DNA from: Acidobacteriota bacterium
GTDB taxonomy: Bacteria; Acidobacteriota; Vicinamibacteria; Vicinamibacterales; JAKQTR01
Assembly (NCBI GenBank): GCA_026393755.1
Contig: JAPKZO010000018.1
Location: 35,418-99,417 of the forward strand
DNA: 64,000 nucleotides
Direction of reading: 5' to 3'
Below are positions 20,939-55,724 of the stretch, one piece after another. The notes under the pieces were generated by a model, which worked only from the letters and a program-made list of their open reading frames with translations, had not been told where the DNA came from and ran no database searches. The translations under genes were made by a program, and so were the position numbers. The stretch's first letter is position 1. Each line of letters opens with the position of its first letter.

Positions 20939-22624
20939 CTACATCGCGGCCTTGACCGCAAACGTCGACGTGACGCGCGCCAGGATGGCGTCCCGGATGC
21001 GCCGCCCGTCGGCAACCAGCCGTTCGACCTCGGCCGAGCACGCGCTCTTGAAGACCGTGTCCGCGATCGATCCCAGGTTGATCAGCACGTTGAGCGCCGC
21101 ACCCTCCAGACCAGCCTGCGCCGCCAGCCCGGCGACGCCGGCGTCTGAGGCCGAGTTCGTGTTGCCGGTAAGCGCCGCCTGTTCGGCCAGGCGGAGGGCT
21201 TCCAGGCACATCCCCGCCGTCCGCAGCGGCACCTCCGCCGCGTGCTTGTTCGCCGACTCAAGCGCCGTCGCCCGTCGGTCGTTCTGGTCGGCCGTTCCCT
21301 TCGGCAGACGCATCGCGTCCATCACACGATTGAAGGCGTTGGTGTCCTCATCGACCGCGCGCGCCAACGCGTCCTTGACGCGCTGGCCCTCTTCTGCCAA
21401 CGCCGCAAGCGTCTCCCAGACGGGCTCGTAGCCCTTTCTGCCCACCGTCAGGTTCGCTACCATCGTCGCCAGCGCAGCCCCCAGGCTGCCCATCAGCGCG
21501 GTCACCGATCCGCCGCCCGGGGCCGGCGATTCGGTGGAGACTTCGTCGACAAACCGTGAGGCCGTCATGGCCATCAGCGGGGCGGGCGGCGTGAAGTGAT
21601 ACTCGACGATCTTCCTGGATGGGTCGAACGGGGCGACCTGGTCGAGTCCGAGCGATCTGATGGCCATCTCCACCAGTTCACGTTCGGGCATACCGGCCGA
21701 CTTGCCCTGCTTGCGGAGGAAGTAGCGGCCGGCCTCGAGCATCGGCTCGAGCGGTGTCAGTCCGACCAGTTCGGACCCGGTCACGACGAGGCCGAGCCTC
21801 TCAGCCTCTTCGCGCGCGGTTTCGAACACGACGTGAAGGGGGGTCGTCTTGTAGTCGAGCAGGTTGATCGACACCTGTGCCTGGCGGTACTGCTCGATGT
21901 ACCAACCGATGGCGCGGACGGCCTTGAGGCGTCCTGGCACTTTGACCGACTCGCCGTTGGCGTCGCGGACGATCGCGCCACGGGGATCCCGTTTGGCGCG
22001 GCCTCCCTCACGGATATTGAGCGCAATCTCGTTGGCCAACCGGCGATCGAGCGTGTTGAGATTCACGTTGTACGCGAGCAGAAACTCGCGGGCGCCCACC
22101 ACCGTCGCGCCCGAACGGGCGTTGAACACACACGGGCCCGCGTCGGGCGCCCAGTTCGCATCCTCGAGCTTGCGCGCAAGCCCTTCGTACTCGCCGCCGC
22201 GGATGTCGGCCAGGCTGCGTCGCTCCTCCCGGCTCGCGGCGTGCTCGTAGAAATAGACTGGAATGCCGAGTTCGGTGCCGATGCGCCGGCCCAGCGTCCT
22301 CGCCAGTTCCGCGCACTCCTCCATCGTGATCCCGGCCACCGGCACGAACGGGCAGACGTCCAGCGCGCCCATTCGCGGATGCGCCCCGCGGTGCGACGTC
22401 ATGTCGATCAGTTCCGTGGCTCTTCTCGCGGCGCGGAAGGCCGCTTCGGCGACCAGGTCCGGCGGACCGACGCAGGTATAGACCGTGCGATTCGTGTCCG
22501 CGCCCGGATCGACATCGAGCAGCTTCACGCCGCTGACGCCGGAGAGGGCCTGCGCGATCGCGTCGATAACGGCGCGATCGCGGCCTTCAGAGAAGTTGGG
22601 CACACATTCAACGAGTCGAGACAT
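20939..22624 (-). CDS. ftcD: Glutamate formimidoyltransferase / formimidoyltetrahydrofolate cyclodeaminase fusion
   Basis: A 561-residue bifunctional enzyme of histidine degradation. The N-terminal formiminotransferase domains (about 1-180 and 180-300) start with VECVPNFSEGRD and contain RGAHPRMGALDVCPFVP; they transfer the formimino group from formiminoglutamate to tetrahydrofolate. The C-terminal cyclodeaminase (about 350-560) contains STESPAPGGGSVTALMGSLGAALATMVANL and DEDTNAFNRVMDAMRLPK, releasing ammonia to give methenyl-THF. The fused order is that of animal FTCD; many bacteria keep the parts separate. The ATG at 22624 has GAGGTG six bases upstream. No other hut genes are in the window. 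Confidence 0.93.
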   Translation of the reverse strand: MSRLVECVPNFSEGRDRAVIDAIAQALSGVSGVKLLDVDPGADTNRTVYTCVGPPDLVAEAAFRAARRATELIDMTSHRGAHPRMGALDVCPFVPVAGITMEECAELARTLGRRIGTELGIPVYFYEHAASREERRSLADIRGGEYEGLARKLEDANWAPDAGPCVFNARSGATVVGAREFLLAYNVNLNTLDRRLANEIALNIREGGRAKRDPRGAIVRDANGESVKVPGRLKAVRAIGWYIEQYRQAQVSINLLDYKTTPLHVVFETAREEAERLGLVVTGSELVGLTPLEPMLEAGRYFLRKQGKSAGMPERELVEMAIRSLGLDQVAPFDPSRKIVEYHFTPPAPLMAMTASRFVDEVSTESPAPGGGSVTALMGSLGAALATMVANLTVGRKGYEPVWETLAALAEEGQRVKDALARAVDEDTNAFNRVMDAMRLPKGTADQNDRRATALESANKHAAEVPLRTAGMCLEALRLAEQAALTGNTNSASDAGVAGLAAQAGLEGAALNVLINLGSIADTVFKSACSAEVERLVADGRRIRDAILARVTSTFAVKAAM

Positions 22625-22712
22625 CAGATCCACCTCGTGAGGCTGCCGGGTCAGCCGTTCAGCGTACGCCTGTCCGGGCCAGGCCGGCAAGGGCCCGGGC
22701 AGCCACACATCA

Positions 22713-24143
22713 CTACAGCAGTTTCGCCGCCAGTTCTGCAATGCGCGAGCGCACAACGTCCTTCATCGTGAGATGGGCGAAGCACGATTCGCCCTTGAAG
22801 CGCTCGACCACCTGCACCAGCCCGTTCGACAACGAATCCACCTCGGCGCGGTCGATCTGATCGGGGTCTCCCGTCAGAATGACGCGCGCGCCCTCGCCGG
22901 CCCGCGTCAGCACCAGCTTCATGTCTTCCTGCGTCAGGTTCTGCCCATCGTCCACGATGATCACCGCGTCATGGATGGAGCGGCCGCGCAGGTAGTTGAT
23001 GGGCGAGATCTCGAGCGTGTGGTTCGAGATCAACTCGTCCACGGTCGGACCGACGGGGACGGGCGCGTGGGCCTTGTCGGCCTGCTGCTCCGCGAGCTGG
23101 TTGGTCCAGCGCGCGCCGCCGTTCAGGCGCCGCATGATGAAATCGAAGTTGTCGATGATGGGCTTGGCCCACGGTGCCATCTTGTCGCCCAGATCGCCTG
23201 GCAGAAAGCCCAGCTGACGGCCGGCCTCCGCGTTGACGCGGTACACCTCGATCTTCGAGATCTTGCTGGCGCGGTAGAGCTCGTACGCGCAGAGCAGCGC
23301 GATCAGCGTCTTGCCCGTGCCGGCGATGCCCACCAGCGACACGATCAGGGACTGGTCGTCGAGGATCAGGTCGCGGGCGCACGCCTGCTCGGGATTGCAC
23401 GGGCCGAAGCGTTCGCCGACCTTGGTGTTGACGCGCCGCAGGTATCCCGTGCCGTCGTGCTGCTTGTAGATGCCCCACGCGCTCTTGCCGTTGCCGCGCA
23501 CGTGCAGCTCGCAGCACTGATTGGGGAACATCTGTGAGACGTCGGTGAACCCGGCCACCGCATCCATCGGCAGGCGGTGTTCGTGATGGAGCGTCGACAG
23601 CAGGCCGGCTTGTTCGGCCGGGATCTCGATGCGCGCCCGCCCCGAGTAGAACTTGTCGGGCGAGGTGACGGGGCGATCGCTGTAGTAGTCCTCGGCGCTG
23701 ATGCCGCGCGCCCGCGCCTTGCAGCGCATCGCGGCATCCCGGGTGACAAGTACGACCGGTTCGTTGTGATGCGCCTCCTGGTAGCTGCCGGCCAGCAGGA
23801 TGATCGCATCATCGGCATAGGTCGAGTTGAAGCCGGGCCACGCGCGCGTCATGTCGAGCTCGCCGCGGTGGAAGCGCAGCGTGCCGCCGTTGAGCGGAAT
23901 GCCGTGCTGGAGCTCGTCGAGCGACGCCTGCATCTGCAACTGATCGAGAAAACGAATGGTCTGGCGCGCGGTGTACCCGACGCCATTGGCGCTGGTCCGG
24001 CGCCGATCCAACTCCTGCAAGACCGGGAAGGGCAGCACAACGGTATTGCCGTCCGTCAGGTTCTGGAGCGCTTCGGGTGCCGACACCAGGACGCTCGTGT
24101 CGACGATGTAGACCTTGTGCCGATCCTGCGTTGCAGGGGTCAT
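22713..24143 (-). CDS. PIN-PhoH (PhoH2-type) ATPase/ribonuclease
   Basis: A 476-residue protein with an N-terminal PIN nuclease domain (VYIVDTSVLVSAPEAL, catalytic Asp about 15; VLPFPVLQELDRR; VVLVTRDAAMRCKA) and a C-terminal PhoH ATPase (Walker A GIAGTGKT about residue 265; Walker B DAVIIVDDGQNL; arginine-rich LTGDPDQID). Proteins of this architecture (PhoH2) unwind and cleave RNA. It is the last gene of a three-gene operon: its ATG overlaps by four bases the stop of a separate PIN toxin gene, itself overlapping a Phd antitoxin gene. GGAGG lies seven bases before the ATG. This context suggests control by the same antitoxin promoter. Confidence 0.9.
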   Translation of the reverse strand: MTPATQDRHKVYIVDTSVLVSAPEALQNLTDGNTVVLPFPVLQELDRRRTSANGVGYTARQTIRFLDQLQMQASLDELQHGIPLNGGTLRFHRGELDMTRAWPGFNSTYADDAIILLAGSYQEAHHNEPVVLVTRDAAMRCKARARGISAEDYYSDRPVTSPDKFYSGRARIEIPAEQAGLLSTLHHEHRLPMDAVAGFTDVSQMFPNQCCELHVRGNGKSAWGIYKQHDGTGYLRRVNTKVGERFGPCNPEQACARDLILDDQSLIVSLVGIAGTGKTLIALLCAYELYRASKISKIEVYRVNAEAGRQLGFLPGDLGDKMAPWAKPIIDNFDFIMRRLNGGARWTNQLAEQQADKAHAPVPVGPTVDELISNHTLEISPINYLRGRSIHDAVIIVDDGQNLTQEDMKLVLTRAGEGARVILTGDPDQIDRAEVDSLSNGLVQVVERFKGESCFAHLTMKDVVRSRIAELAAKLL

Positions 24144-24649
24144 ACCGTGCCTCCTCCGCCGGATATCGGCCGCGCGGGCTGGCGGACGCCGGGCGCAGCC
24201 TTTTCACTGGACGTCGACGGTGTGGTCGCCGGAACCACGCGGAAGCCCAGCAAGTGGGCATTGCGCCGGACATCTTCGTCCAGCGCGAGCACCGCGAGGC
24301 CCGGGATGGCCGAGCGCGCCACGAGCGCACTCGCCAGATGGAGCGCCGAGATCGTTTCGAGCGGTTCGCTGGGAAAGCCGCGACGGGCCCGCTCGACGCC
24401 CGTGGGATGCAGACGCAGGACGTGCCAGGCCGCCGCCGCTTCGTTCAGGTGGGCGCGCCGGTCGGCCGCGTCGGCCTCGGACAACTGTGTGGCGCGCTGC
24501 GCACGGTGCAGGGCGCGATCGCATTCGACCAGCGTCAGGTCCGACGTGATGACCAGCTCCGCCTGCTGAAGAAGGGCGCGGATCGGGTCCGCGGCCGCAT
24601 CGCCGAGAAGCCACGCCAGTATGGCGCTCGACTCCGCGTAGAGCCTCAT
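24140..24649 (-). CDS. PIN-domain toxin (VapC-like)
   Basis: A 169-residue PIN-domain RNase toxin candidate. Motifs: YAESSAILAWLLGD at the N-terminus (acidic residue Glu5 in place of the usual Asp), LVECDRAL, SALHLASALVA, and LDEDVRRNAHLLGFRV with the last acidic positions. The extra C-terminal 30 residues are Pro/Ser-rich. Start and stop each overlap neighbours by four bases (Phd antitoxin upstream, PIN-PhoH downstream), so all three are translationally coupled. Confidence 0.85.
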   Translation of the reverse strand: MRLYAESSAILAWLLGDAAADPIRALLQQAELVITSDLTLVECDRALHRAQRATQLSEADAADRRAHLNEAAAAWHVLRLHPTGVERARRGFPSEPLETISALHLASALVARSAIPGLAVLALDEDVRRNAHLLGFRVVPATTPSTSSEKAAPGVRQPARPISGGGGTV

Positions 24650-24936
24650 CGGGCGCCTCGGCCGGCGTTCAGGATCTGTCGCGTGGAGAGGCCCGCAGCC
24701 ACGCGCCGCAGCTTTGGGTAGGAAGGAGGGCTGTCGATCGAGGCGAGCGTGACCTGTCCGTCCCTGGCGAGGGCAGCCAGGCCCGACGGCACACCGTCGT
24801 GTTCATCCGCGCCCGCCTCACGCAACTCCGCGACAATCGTTCCCCGGTCGCTGACGAGCACCCGTTCGCCAAGCCGGACCTCGCGGACGTATTCGCTGAG
24901 GCGGTTCTTGAGCTCCCGGATGCCCACAGTCTTCAC
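24646..24936 (-). CDS. Phd/YefM-family antitoxin, apparent leaderless GTG start
   Basis: A 96-residue Phd-type antitoxin: VKTVGIRELKNRLSEYVREV then GERVLVSDRGTIVAEL is the classic N-terminal DNA-binding domain; the C-terminal tail would wrap the PIN toxin. The longest frame starts at TTG 24945, but that codon lies inside the -10 element and operator, so the GTG at 24936 is preferred. The predicted transcription start falls on this GTG and there is no Shine-Dalgarno, so the mRNA looks leaderless. First gene of the Phd / PIN / PIN-PhoH operon. Confidence 0.85.
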   Translation of the reverse strand: MKTVGIRELKNRLSEYVREVRLGERVLVSDRGTIVAELREAGADEHDGVPSGLAALARDGQVTLASIDSPPSYPKLRRVAAGLSTRQILNAGRGAR

Positions 24937-24942
24937 GCCGGG

Positions 24943-24972
24943 CAATGTAGCTACATGTAGCTACATTGTCAA
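24943..24972 (-). promoter_or_regulatory. Promoter plus operator of the Phd-PIN-PhoH operon
   Basis: Minus strand: TTGACA (24972-24967, perfect -35), exactly 17 bases, TACATT (24949-24944, -10). The spacer and -10 are covered by a perfect 26-bp palindrome (24943-24968) made of two abutting TGTAGCTACA units, a form typical of VapB/Phd operators. Binding by the antitoxin would block the polymerase. The predicted transcription start is the GTG of the antitoxin gene. Confidence 0.8.
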
Positions 24973-25049
24973 GCGGGAACATTCGGGGGCCGCTCCCTCG
25001 TTGCAGCCCGTCCCCCGAACGGGTAGCATCCTCAACACGGAGGACGCGC

Positions 25050-26555
25050 GTGCAACAGATACTCATTGGCAAAGCCGAGCAGCCGGTCCATTTGCTTGCG
25101 AAGTACGGCAACCGCCACGGCATGGTGGCCGGCGCTACAGGGACGGGAAAGACCATCTCGCTGCTGGTCCTCGCGGAGGGCTTCTCGCGCATGGGTGTGC
25201 CGTCGTTCATCGCGGACGTGAAGGGTGATGTGGCCGGGCTGGCGATGGCTGGGGTCGCGAGCGAGCAACTCCAGGAGCGCGTCAAACGAATTGGCGTCGA
25301 GGGCTACGCCTGCGAGGGAAGCCCGGTCGTGTTCTGGGATCTGTACGGCAAGGCGGGCCATCCGGTGCGTACGACGGTCAGCGAGATTGGACCGACACTG
25401 CTCGCCCGGATGCTCGAGATCAACGACACGCAGGAGGGCATGCTGGAGATCGTCTTCAAGCTGGCCGACGATCAGGGCCTGCTGCTGCTCGACCTCGACG
25501 ATCTGCACGCGCTGCTCGGGTTCATCGCCGACAACCACAAGGAAGTGTCGGCGCAGGTGGGTCTGGTCAGCACCCAGTCGGTGGCGGCCATCCAGCGCGC
25601 GATGTTGTCGCTCGAGCGCGAGGGCGGCAAGGCGTTCTTCGGCGAGCCGGCGTTGGAGCTGGTCGACCTGATGCGTACGGACTTGACCGGCCGCGGCATC
25701 ATCAACATCCTGGCCGCCGACCAGCTCATCCTGAAACCGCGGCTGTACTCGAGCTTCCTGCTGTGGCTGCTGTCTGAATTGTTCGAGAAGCTGCCCGAAG
25801 TGGGTGATCTCGAGCAGCCGAAGCTGGCCGTGTTCTTTGACGAAGCCCACCTGTTGTTTGACGACGCCCCGGCGTCGCTGCTTCAGCGGGTGGAGCAAGT
25901 GGTGCGGCTGATTCGTTCGAAGGGCGTCGGCGTGTATTTCTGCTCGCAGTTGCCGGATGATGTGCCGAACGAGATTCTGGGCCAGCTGGGCAACCGCGTC
26001 CAGCACGCGCTGCGTGCGTACACGCCGCGCGACCAAAAGGCCGTGCGGACGGCTGCGGAAACGTTCGTGGCCAATCCCGCGCTCGACGTCACGACGGTCA
26101 TCTCGCAGCTCGCCGTCGGCGAGGCGCTGGTGTCCACACTGCAGGAGAACGGCGTGCCGATGCCGGTGGCGCGCACGCTAATGTCGCCGCCGCGCTGCCG
26201 GATGGGCGCGATCACCGTGGAGGAACGCGCCGCCGTGCGGGCGCGCAGTCCGATTGGCGCCAAGTACGACTCCGCGATCAACCGCGAGTCCGCGTACGAG
26301 ATCCTGAACCGGCGGGCCGCGGCCGCCATCGCGCCAACCGCGCAGCCGGCTCCCACGCAGGCCGGGTCCGCCCAATCAGGGCAGCAACCCAAAGCCGGCG
26401 GCGGAATGCTGGGCGGTTTGCTGTGGGGCACCACCCGCCGGCAGGGGATGGTGGAGACCATGGCCAAACAGGCGGCCCGAACCGTCGGCAGCCAGGTCGG
26501 CCGGCAGATCCTCCGCGGCGTGCTGGGCGGCATCTTCGGCGGTTCGCGGCGCTAG
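25050..26555 (+). CDS. HerA-like ATPase, DUF853 family
   Basis: A 501-residue HerA/FtsK-type ATPase. Walker A is GATGTGKT (about residues 28-35); Walker B is LAVFFDEAHLLFDD (about 257-270); the arginine/glutamine-rich VRLIRSKGVGVYFCSQLPDDVPNEILGQLGNR is typical of DUF853, formerly annotated as a bipolar helicase. The C-terminal region (from about 415) is Ala/Gln/Gly-rich and low in structure. GTG 25050 is preceded five bases upstream by GGAGGA. It diverges from the Phd operon; the 77-base gap carries that operon's promoter. Its biological role is not established. Confidence 0.88.
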   Translation: MQQILIGKAEQPVHLLAKYGNRHGMVAGATGTGKTISLLVLAEGFSRMGVPSFIADVKGDVAGLAMAGVASEQLQERVKRIGVEGYACEGSPVVFWDLYGKAGHPVRTTVSEIGPTLLARMLEINDTQEGMLEIVFKLADDQGLLLLDLDDLHALLGFIADNHKEVSAQVGLVSTQSVAAIQRAMLSLEREGGKAFFGEPALELVDLMRTDLTGRGIINILAADQLILKPRLYSSFLLWLLSELFEKLPEVGDLEQPKLAVFFDEAHLLFDDAPASLLQRVEQVVRLIRSKGVGVYFCSQLPDDVPNEILGQLGNRVQHALRAYTPRDQKAVRTAAETFVANPALDVTTVISQLAVGEALVSTLQENGVPMPVARTLMSPPRCRMGAITVEERAAVRARSPIGAKYDSAINRESAYEILNRRAAAAIAPTAQPAPTQAGSAQSGQQPKAGGGMLGGLLWGTTRRQGMVETMAKQAARTVGSQVGRQILRGVLGGIFGGSRR

Positions 26556-55007: not shown

Positions 55008-55293
55008 TATCACCGAAATGAAGAACGGCCTGAGCGCGCTCATCGATCGCGTCCGCCACGGCGACGCCATCGTCATCGAGGATCGGGGTGTGCCGGTCGC
55101 CAGGCTCGAGCCGGTCTCTGCCCCGGGCCGGAACAGTTCCGACGGCCGGATCGCGCGGCTGGTGCGCCAGGGTGTGGTCAGGTCCGCCGGCTCCGCGCCG
55201 CCCAAGCGGATCCTCGCCGCCGATCCGCCGTCTCCCAAGGGCGGGTTCAGCCTCAGCCACGCGATCATCGACGAGCGCCGGAACGGGCGATGA
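54994..55293 (+). CDS. Phd/YefM-family antitoxin
   Basis: A 99-residue antitoxin: MKRASITEMKNGLSALIDRV then GDAIVIEDRGVPVARLEPV is the Phd/YefM DNA-binding core; the tail (from about 55) is Pro/Ser/Arg-rich and would bind the toxin. The frame opens at 54916, but the ATG at 54994 begins the family sequence and matches the promoter position. It overlaps the PIN gene by four bases (ATGA). Confidence 0.87.
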   Translation: MKRASITEMKNGLSALIDRVRHGDAIVIEDRGVPVARLEPVSAPGRNSSDGRIARLVRQGVVRSAGSAPPKRILAADPPSPKGGFSLSHAIIDERRNGR

Positions 55294-55724
55294 GGTTCTG
55301 GGATAGCTCGGCGCTTGTGCCGTTGCTGGCGGCCGAACCGATGACCGGGCTCATTCACGAGCGTTACCTGCAGGATCCGGAGGTTGCCGTCTGGTGGGGC
55401 ACGCCGGTGGAATGCGCCTCGGCTATCGCCAGGCTCGAGCGCGAAGACGCGCTGTCGGCGAAAGATGCGGCCACCGCGTTCGCGCGGCTCGACGCGCTGG
55501 CAGCGGCCTGGGTGCAGGTGGAACCGCGAGACGAAATCCGGGAAACGGCGCGCCGGTTGCTGCGCGTTCATCCGCTGCGGGCGGCAGACGCTCTCCAACT
55601 TGCCGCAGCGTTCGCGTGCGCCGAGCGCCGGCCATCCACACTGACATTCGTCACACTCGACGACCGGTTGCGCACGGCGGCTGGCCGGGAAGGCTTCGAC
55701 CTTCTGGAACTGACCGCCGGTTGA
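55290..55724 (+). CDS. PIN-domain toxin (VapC-like)
   Basis: A 144-residue PIN RNase candidate. Acidic residues line up in MRFWDSSALVPLL (Asp5), TPVECASAIAR (Glu), RAADALQLAAAF (Asp) and FVTLDDRLRTAAGREGFDLL (Asp). Intact, of normal length and translationally coupled to the Phd antitoxin upstream. Family members cleave tRNA or rRNA; no specific target can be assigned. Confidence 0.88.
   Translation: MRFWDSSALVPLLAAEPMTGLIHERYLQDPEVAVWWGTPVECASAIARLEREDALSAKDAATAFARLDALAAAWVQVEPRDEIRETARRLLRVHPLRAADALQLAAAFACAERRPSTLTFVTLDDRLRTAAGREGFDLLELTAG

Follow-up and report, generated by a model that had tools for sequence, protein, structure and literature searches.

A Phd-PIN toxin-antitoxin module of one soil-type bacterium (genome of 4.4 Mb; close relatives in the Vicinamibacterales, Acidobacteriota) stands directly upstream of a gene for a PhoH2-type PIN-ATPase, and this order was seen in this genome alone. 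We regard it as probable, if narrowly so, that the module inserted in front of phoH2, displaced the promoter of that gene and gave up its toxin activity, and that it survives as an autorepressor that would now control PhoH2. Three features of the locus go beyond a chance co-location, namely the extra tail of the PIN protein together with a missing −10 sequence, the residue losses in the PIN protein, and the changed tail of the antitoxin.

All positions refer to the window, the whole stretch of 64,000 nucleotides that was analysed. Open reading frames, overlaps and promoter scan bore out the layout given in the preliminary description: three minus-strand genes, phd, the PIN gene and the PIN-PhoH gene, follow one another behind one operator-promoter and are joined by two 4-base ATGA overlaps, at 24646-24649 (phd/PIN) and 24140-24143 (PIN/phoH2). 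The features are as follows.

24944..24972, minus strand: operon promoter, TTGACA-17-TACATT (sigma-70-like scan; same architecture at related Phd-PIN pairs)
24946..24965, no strand: operator palindrome TGTAGCTACATGTAGCTACA, 20 bases, between the −35 and −10 sequences (related operators in relatives)
24646..24936, minus strand: phd, Phd/YefM-type antitoxin, 96 aa, GTG start (TIGR01552; relatives' alignment)
24140..24649, minus strand: VapC-like PIN protein, 169 aa; core 1-141 with the PIN fold, predicted to be catalytically impaired or dead
24347..24349, minus strand: PIN codon 101, TCG (Ser), where a conserved catalytic Asp stands in 27 of 28 relatives
24143..24226, minus strand: PIN codons 142-169, extra tail, disordered in the model, composition non-coding-like
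24144..24193, minus strand: probable PhoH2 5' leader remnant within the PIN tail (likeness to the leaders of the three closest PhoH2 relatives)
24157-24150, minus strand: Shine-Dalgarno sequence GGAGGAGG of phoH2, inside the leader remnant
22713..24143, minus strand: phoH2, PIN_4 domain and PhoH ATPase, 476 aa, active-site motifs intact

Family models (Pfam/NCBIfam) agree with the names first given to the three products. The antitoxin matches the Phd family TIGR01552 (30.6 bits, cut-off 20.8), the 169-aa protein matches PIN PF01850 (34.2 bits, cut-off 23.6), and the 476-aa chain carries PIN_4 (PF13638) at its N-terminal and PhoH (PF02562) at its C-terminal end. Defence-system models run on the locus gave weak ATPase matches only. 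As in type II modules, the Phd-family antitoxin gene lies directly upstream of the toxin gene and overlaps it, and the promoter contains an operator palindrome. The PhoH2 protein is 73-79% identical over its whole length to ten relatives, the three closest being L065, L066 and L070 (78-79%); the acidic residues of its PIN domain are kept, and its Walker A (GIAGTGKT) and Walker B-like (VIIVDD) motifs are intact. It scored 231.2 bits against a cut-off of 680 for the NCBIfam PhoH2 equivalog NF053827, with which it shares the architecture while being of a different subfamily.

A gene for formiminotransferase-cyclodeaminase (FTCD) follows phoH2 on its strand after about 90 nt (22624-22713) and could be co-transcribed, and a HerA-like helicase gene (24966-26555, plus strand) diverges from the operon. 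A shared neighbourhood was sought to date the insertion: HerA was not found in seven relatives at an E-value of 1e-50, so this helicase may be accessory too, and FTCD lay in the relatives on other contigs than phoH2, so that no empty site emerged from this comparison.

Looking at the relatives, we rejected within the phylum the conserved Phd-PIN-PhoH order that the preliminary description had wanted sought in other genomes. Flanks of up to 2.5 kb on each side (some shorter upstream, the least 0.2 kb) were read with profiles for the window's PIN and Phd at 42 other PhoH2 loci, 14 from the same order, one from a further close relative (L039) and 27 from the same phylum (33-38% identity). None of the 42 had a PIN or Phd gene in the flanks read, and only the window's own pair was found. 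Conversely, the matching Phd gene adjoins the PIN gene at all 28 related PIN loci, and PhoH2 was in the flanks of none of these pairs. Nor was the order seen at six annotated plasmid PhoH2 loci of other phyla, whose neighbours differ, and the PIN protein had no plasmid relative at 1e-5. PhoH2 of this kind is patchy, being present in 15 of the 162 genomes of the order, and its neighbours vary among relatives. One genome (G003) carries both Phd-PIN and PhoH2, on different contigs, and a genome of the bacterium's own genus (G001) has neither PhoH2 nor the PIN protein. Since each occurs elsewhere without the other, two normally independent units meet at this locus. Two records outside the order by title, L038 (CALQBJ020000002.1, titled Bifidobacterium breve) and L039 (JAHFLL010000001.1, titled Candidatus Liptonbacteria), hold PhoH2 genes of the Vicinamibacterales type, and both titles are probably wrong.

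The two overlaps, previously taken as a sign of a three-gene unit, have to be read apart: the second is indeed unusual, whereas the first is ordinary, the 4-base phd/PIN overlap being present in all 16 relatives measured. As this overlap and the operator are shared with relatives, both belong to the Phd-PIN module and not to a three-gene arrangement, and in anatomy the pair and its operator make up a complete module of the usual kind. Most Phd-PIN relatives have a promoter-operator like TTGACAATGTAGC-NN-CATG-NN-GCTACATT with the start codon close behind. In a scan for sigma-70-type sites, TTGACA-17-TACATT was the sole such site in 22500-25100 (0.3 expected by chance); the palindrome TGTAGCTACATGTAGCTACA has an expectation of 0 in the window, and a search of the genome for the full promoter-operator pattern returned the phd locus alone. 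The phd start codon follows the −10 hexamer by about 5-8 nt (window 24934-24949; L079-L092, L100-L113). Transcription is predicted to start about at the phd GTG, giving a leaderless message, and this closeness, found here and in many relatives, points to leaderless mRNA as probably the rule in the whole family. A second, ordinary Phd-PIN pair lies in the window (PIN 55290-55724, plus strand; antitoxin end 55293; ATGA overlap), its PIN having the catalytic Asp intact (ADALQLAAA), and a third PIN relative lies on contig C31.

We then examined the second overlap. The PIN protein has 169 residues in the window and 128-150 in all 28 relatives, and its last 28 codons (142-169) were found in no relative. 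The GC content at codon positions 1/2/3 is 0.64/0.79/0.71 in this tail, compared with 0.79/0.50/0.84 in the PIN core and 0.66/0.42/0.89 in phoH2; in the AlphaFold model the tail has a pLDDT of 55-63 (disordered) and the core one of about 97. Alignment of the final 50 nt ahead of phoH2, GGAGGAGG among them, with the leaders of L070, L065 and L066 gave scores that 0.4%, 0.8% and 2.4%, respectively, of 500 shuffles reach; ten leaders were compared, and the similarity is modest, much of it in the Shine-Dalgarno region. In these same three relatives TAGAAT or TACAAT stands some 75-80 nt ahead of the phoH2 start, where the window has PIN codons and no promoter-like site in the sigma-70-type scan; an obvious TAGAAT-type −10 is also absent in about half of the ten close PhoH2 relatives. 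Because the tail is unique, of non-coding-type composition and leader-like in its 3' part, we consider the second overlap secondary, and it seems to have arisen incidentally when a stop codon was lost. On the simplest history, the module would have taken over from the phoH2 promoter with most of the leader still in place, and the PIN frame, its stop codon gone, would afterwards have been extended through that leader.

The PIN protein itself looks disarmed. As a sequence search for solved PIN relatives gave no useful match, we used structure comparison, in which VapC and addiction-module structures aligned with Z scores of 13-15.5 and an rmsd of 2.0-2.6 over 121-124 residues, meaning that the fold is that of a PIN domain of the VapC type. 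Three of the acidic residues, E6, E42 and D124, are kept; the full conserved catalytic set is not, residue 101 being Ser (D101S). R98E replaces an Arg found in 28 of 28 relatives and R126D one found in 27 of 28, and all three changes lie close to the helix of the active site and the final acidic motif. S101 was equated with D98 of VapC from a motif that opens helix 99-114 and from the near-parallel structural numbering. In BoVapC1 (PMC8522696) and Rv2019 (PMC5175181), toxicity was abolished when the equivalent D98 was exchanged for alanine or lysine. The PIN may not be dead, since its core keeps 36 of 42 conserved columns and a coding-type base composition. A sequencing error behind D101S is unlikely because TCG has no base in common, position by position, with either Asp codon. 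Among the PIN relatives, L112 (G458) has Gly at the same catalytic Asp and is another possibly disarmed toxin; the loss of this residue is thus not unheard of. The earlier suggestion that the two nucleases act on one RNA substrate is disfavoured by these data, since the stand-alone PIN lacks a catalytic Asp on which the VapC toxins tested depend.

The antitoxin is altered at its other end. In the Phd/YefM family the N-terminal half is the DNA-binding part, and here this half shows ordinary conservation (rank 4 of 17), while no other of the 17 sequences diverges as far in the C-terminal half or in the last 14 residues. In the toxin-binding C-terminal tail, LLDEERG of the relatives, whose Asp, Glu and Glu are present in 13-15 of 16, has become ILNAGRG. 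Loss of this tail together with loss of a catalytic residue in the toxin is the pattern that would be expected from relaxed selection on toxicity; continued repression, for its part, would require the operator and the DNA-binding half, both of which are retained.

These observations are consistent with the following course of events. A mobile-type Phd-PIN module with its own operator-promoter would have been placed directly upstream of a pre-existing phoH2 and would have taken the place of the phoH2 promoter, leaving the leader and ribosome-binding site, through which the PIN frame ran on to end in the ATGA overlap with phoH2. The PIN would then have lost its nuclease (toxin) function and the antitoxin its toxin-neutralising tail, with the DNA-binding half and the operator retained. 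Toxins are known to act as co-repressors in autoregulated type II modules, and Phd, probably with the dead PIN in that role, may repress the promoter at 24944-24972. With the promoter seen in its relatives gone, phoH2 would be expressed according to the level of Phd, and more strongly when Phd is degraded. The proposal that the antitoxin also controls PhoH2 is thus plausible for transcription, given the sole promoter-like site and the absence of the relatives' −10. A conserved three-gene system is contradicted by the 42 PhoH2 loci and the 28 Phd-PIN pairs, the unique order being one of the two findings that the preliminary description had named as together refuting its reading. More tentatively, and with clearly less confidence than in the history itself, the module may have been domesticated into a pure transcriptional switch in which a nuclease-dead PIN and a tail-less Phd form a protease-sensitive repressor pair controlling a PhoH2 whose own promoter was replaced. 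Mycobacterial PhoH2 proteins act as RNases with a sequence preference and as ATP-dependent helicases (PMC7390352) and a Synechococcus PIN-PhoH operon restrains a cyanophage (PMC5490813), so that control of PhoH2 in connection with stress would be reasonable.

Since one genome alone shows the arrangement, no conservation supports a selected function. The module may simply have landed upstream of phoH2 by chance and be decaying there, with read-through into phoH2 of no regulatory importance. Such an account would fit the single occurrence, the alteration of both the toxin and the antitoxin tail, and the patchy presence of PhoH2 among varied neighbours (15 of 162 genomes in the order). We nevertheless find it unlikely: the frames are open and the PIN core has a coding-type composition, conservation is good in the operator and in the DNA-binding half of Phd, and phoH2 is intact even though its usual promoter is missing.

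Somewhat less likely again is a pair that still works as toxin and antitoxin through an altered interface, in which the loss of the tail Asp/Glu residues and of two toxin Arg residues would be a matched change of specificity and the three remaining acidic residues would suffice for catalysis. The two partners have indeed both changed, and with opposite charge (R98E and R126D for the PIN, DEE to NAG for Phd), and E6, E42 and D124 are kept; against this, the lost Asp corresponds to the VapC D98 needed for toxicity in the tested cases, and a contact of R98 and R126 with the antitoxin tail is only presumed. A true three-component module, in which Phd would neutralise the PIN domain of PhoH2 or the PIN and PhoH2 would act together on RNA, seems very improbable to us. 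It could appeal to the shared operon and to the binding of PhoH2 by mycobacterial PhoAT (PMC7390352), but the order was found nowhere else, every Phd relative has a stand-alone PIN as its partner, PhoH2 relatives manage without this antitoxin, and the tail by which Phd would bind a PIN is the part that changed. If the favoured history, insertion followed by disarming and survival as a repressor, is true, the locus would be a readable snapshot of a selfish module turning into a host regulator, with the promoter replaced, the toxin disarmed, the tail lost and the repressor half kept. It also calls for caution, as a shared operon with overlaps need not mean a co-evolved three-part system; the overlap with phoH2 appears here to follow from a lost stop codon.

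Like the mycobacterial PhoAT-PhoH2 pair, a type II antitoxin with a PIN-helicase toxin (PMC7390352), the locus has a PIN-PhoH fusion co-directional behind an antitoxin-type gene. The analogy drawn in the preliminary description is nonetheless weak, since there a single antitoxin-like gene directly precedes PhoH2, whereas in the window a PIN gene is immediately upstream of phoH2 and the antitoxin one gene further up; moreover, the window PhoH2 reaches 231 bits against the equivalog cut-off of 680. The Synechococcus SYNW1946-1947 operon (PMC5490813) likewise joins a PIN-PhoH gene to a putative DNA-binding antitoxin partner, but it consists of two genes, PIN-PhoH first and the partner second, and unlike the window has no stand-alone PIN. 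The PIN-PhoH genes of Vicinamibacterales without a toxin-antitoxin neighbour encode proteins 73-79% identical throughout to the window PhoH2; they have no Phd-PIN upstream and several, unlike the window, have a TAGAAT-type −10 near their start. With the Phd/YefM-PIN (VapBC-like) type II modules of Acidobacteriota the locus shares gene order, the 4-base overlap, the TTGACA-palindrome-TACATT arrangement, the PIN fold and the N-terminal half of Phd, and it differs from them in the 28-residue PIN tail, the loss of the Asp and two Arg residues, the loss of the antitoxin motif and the presence of phoH2 as a third gene.
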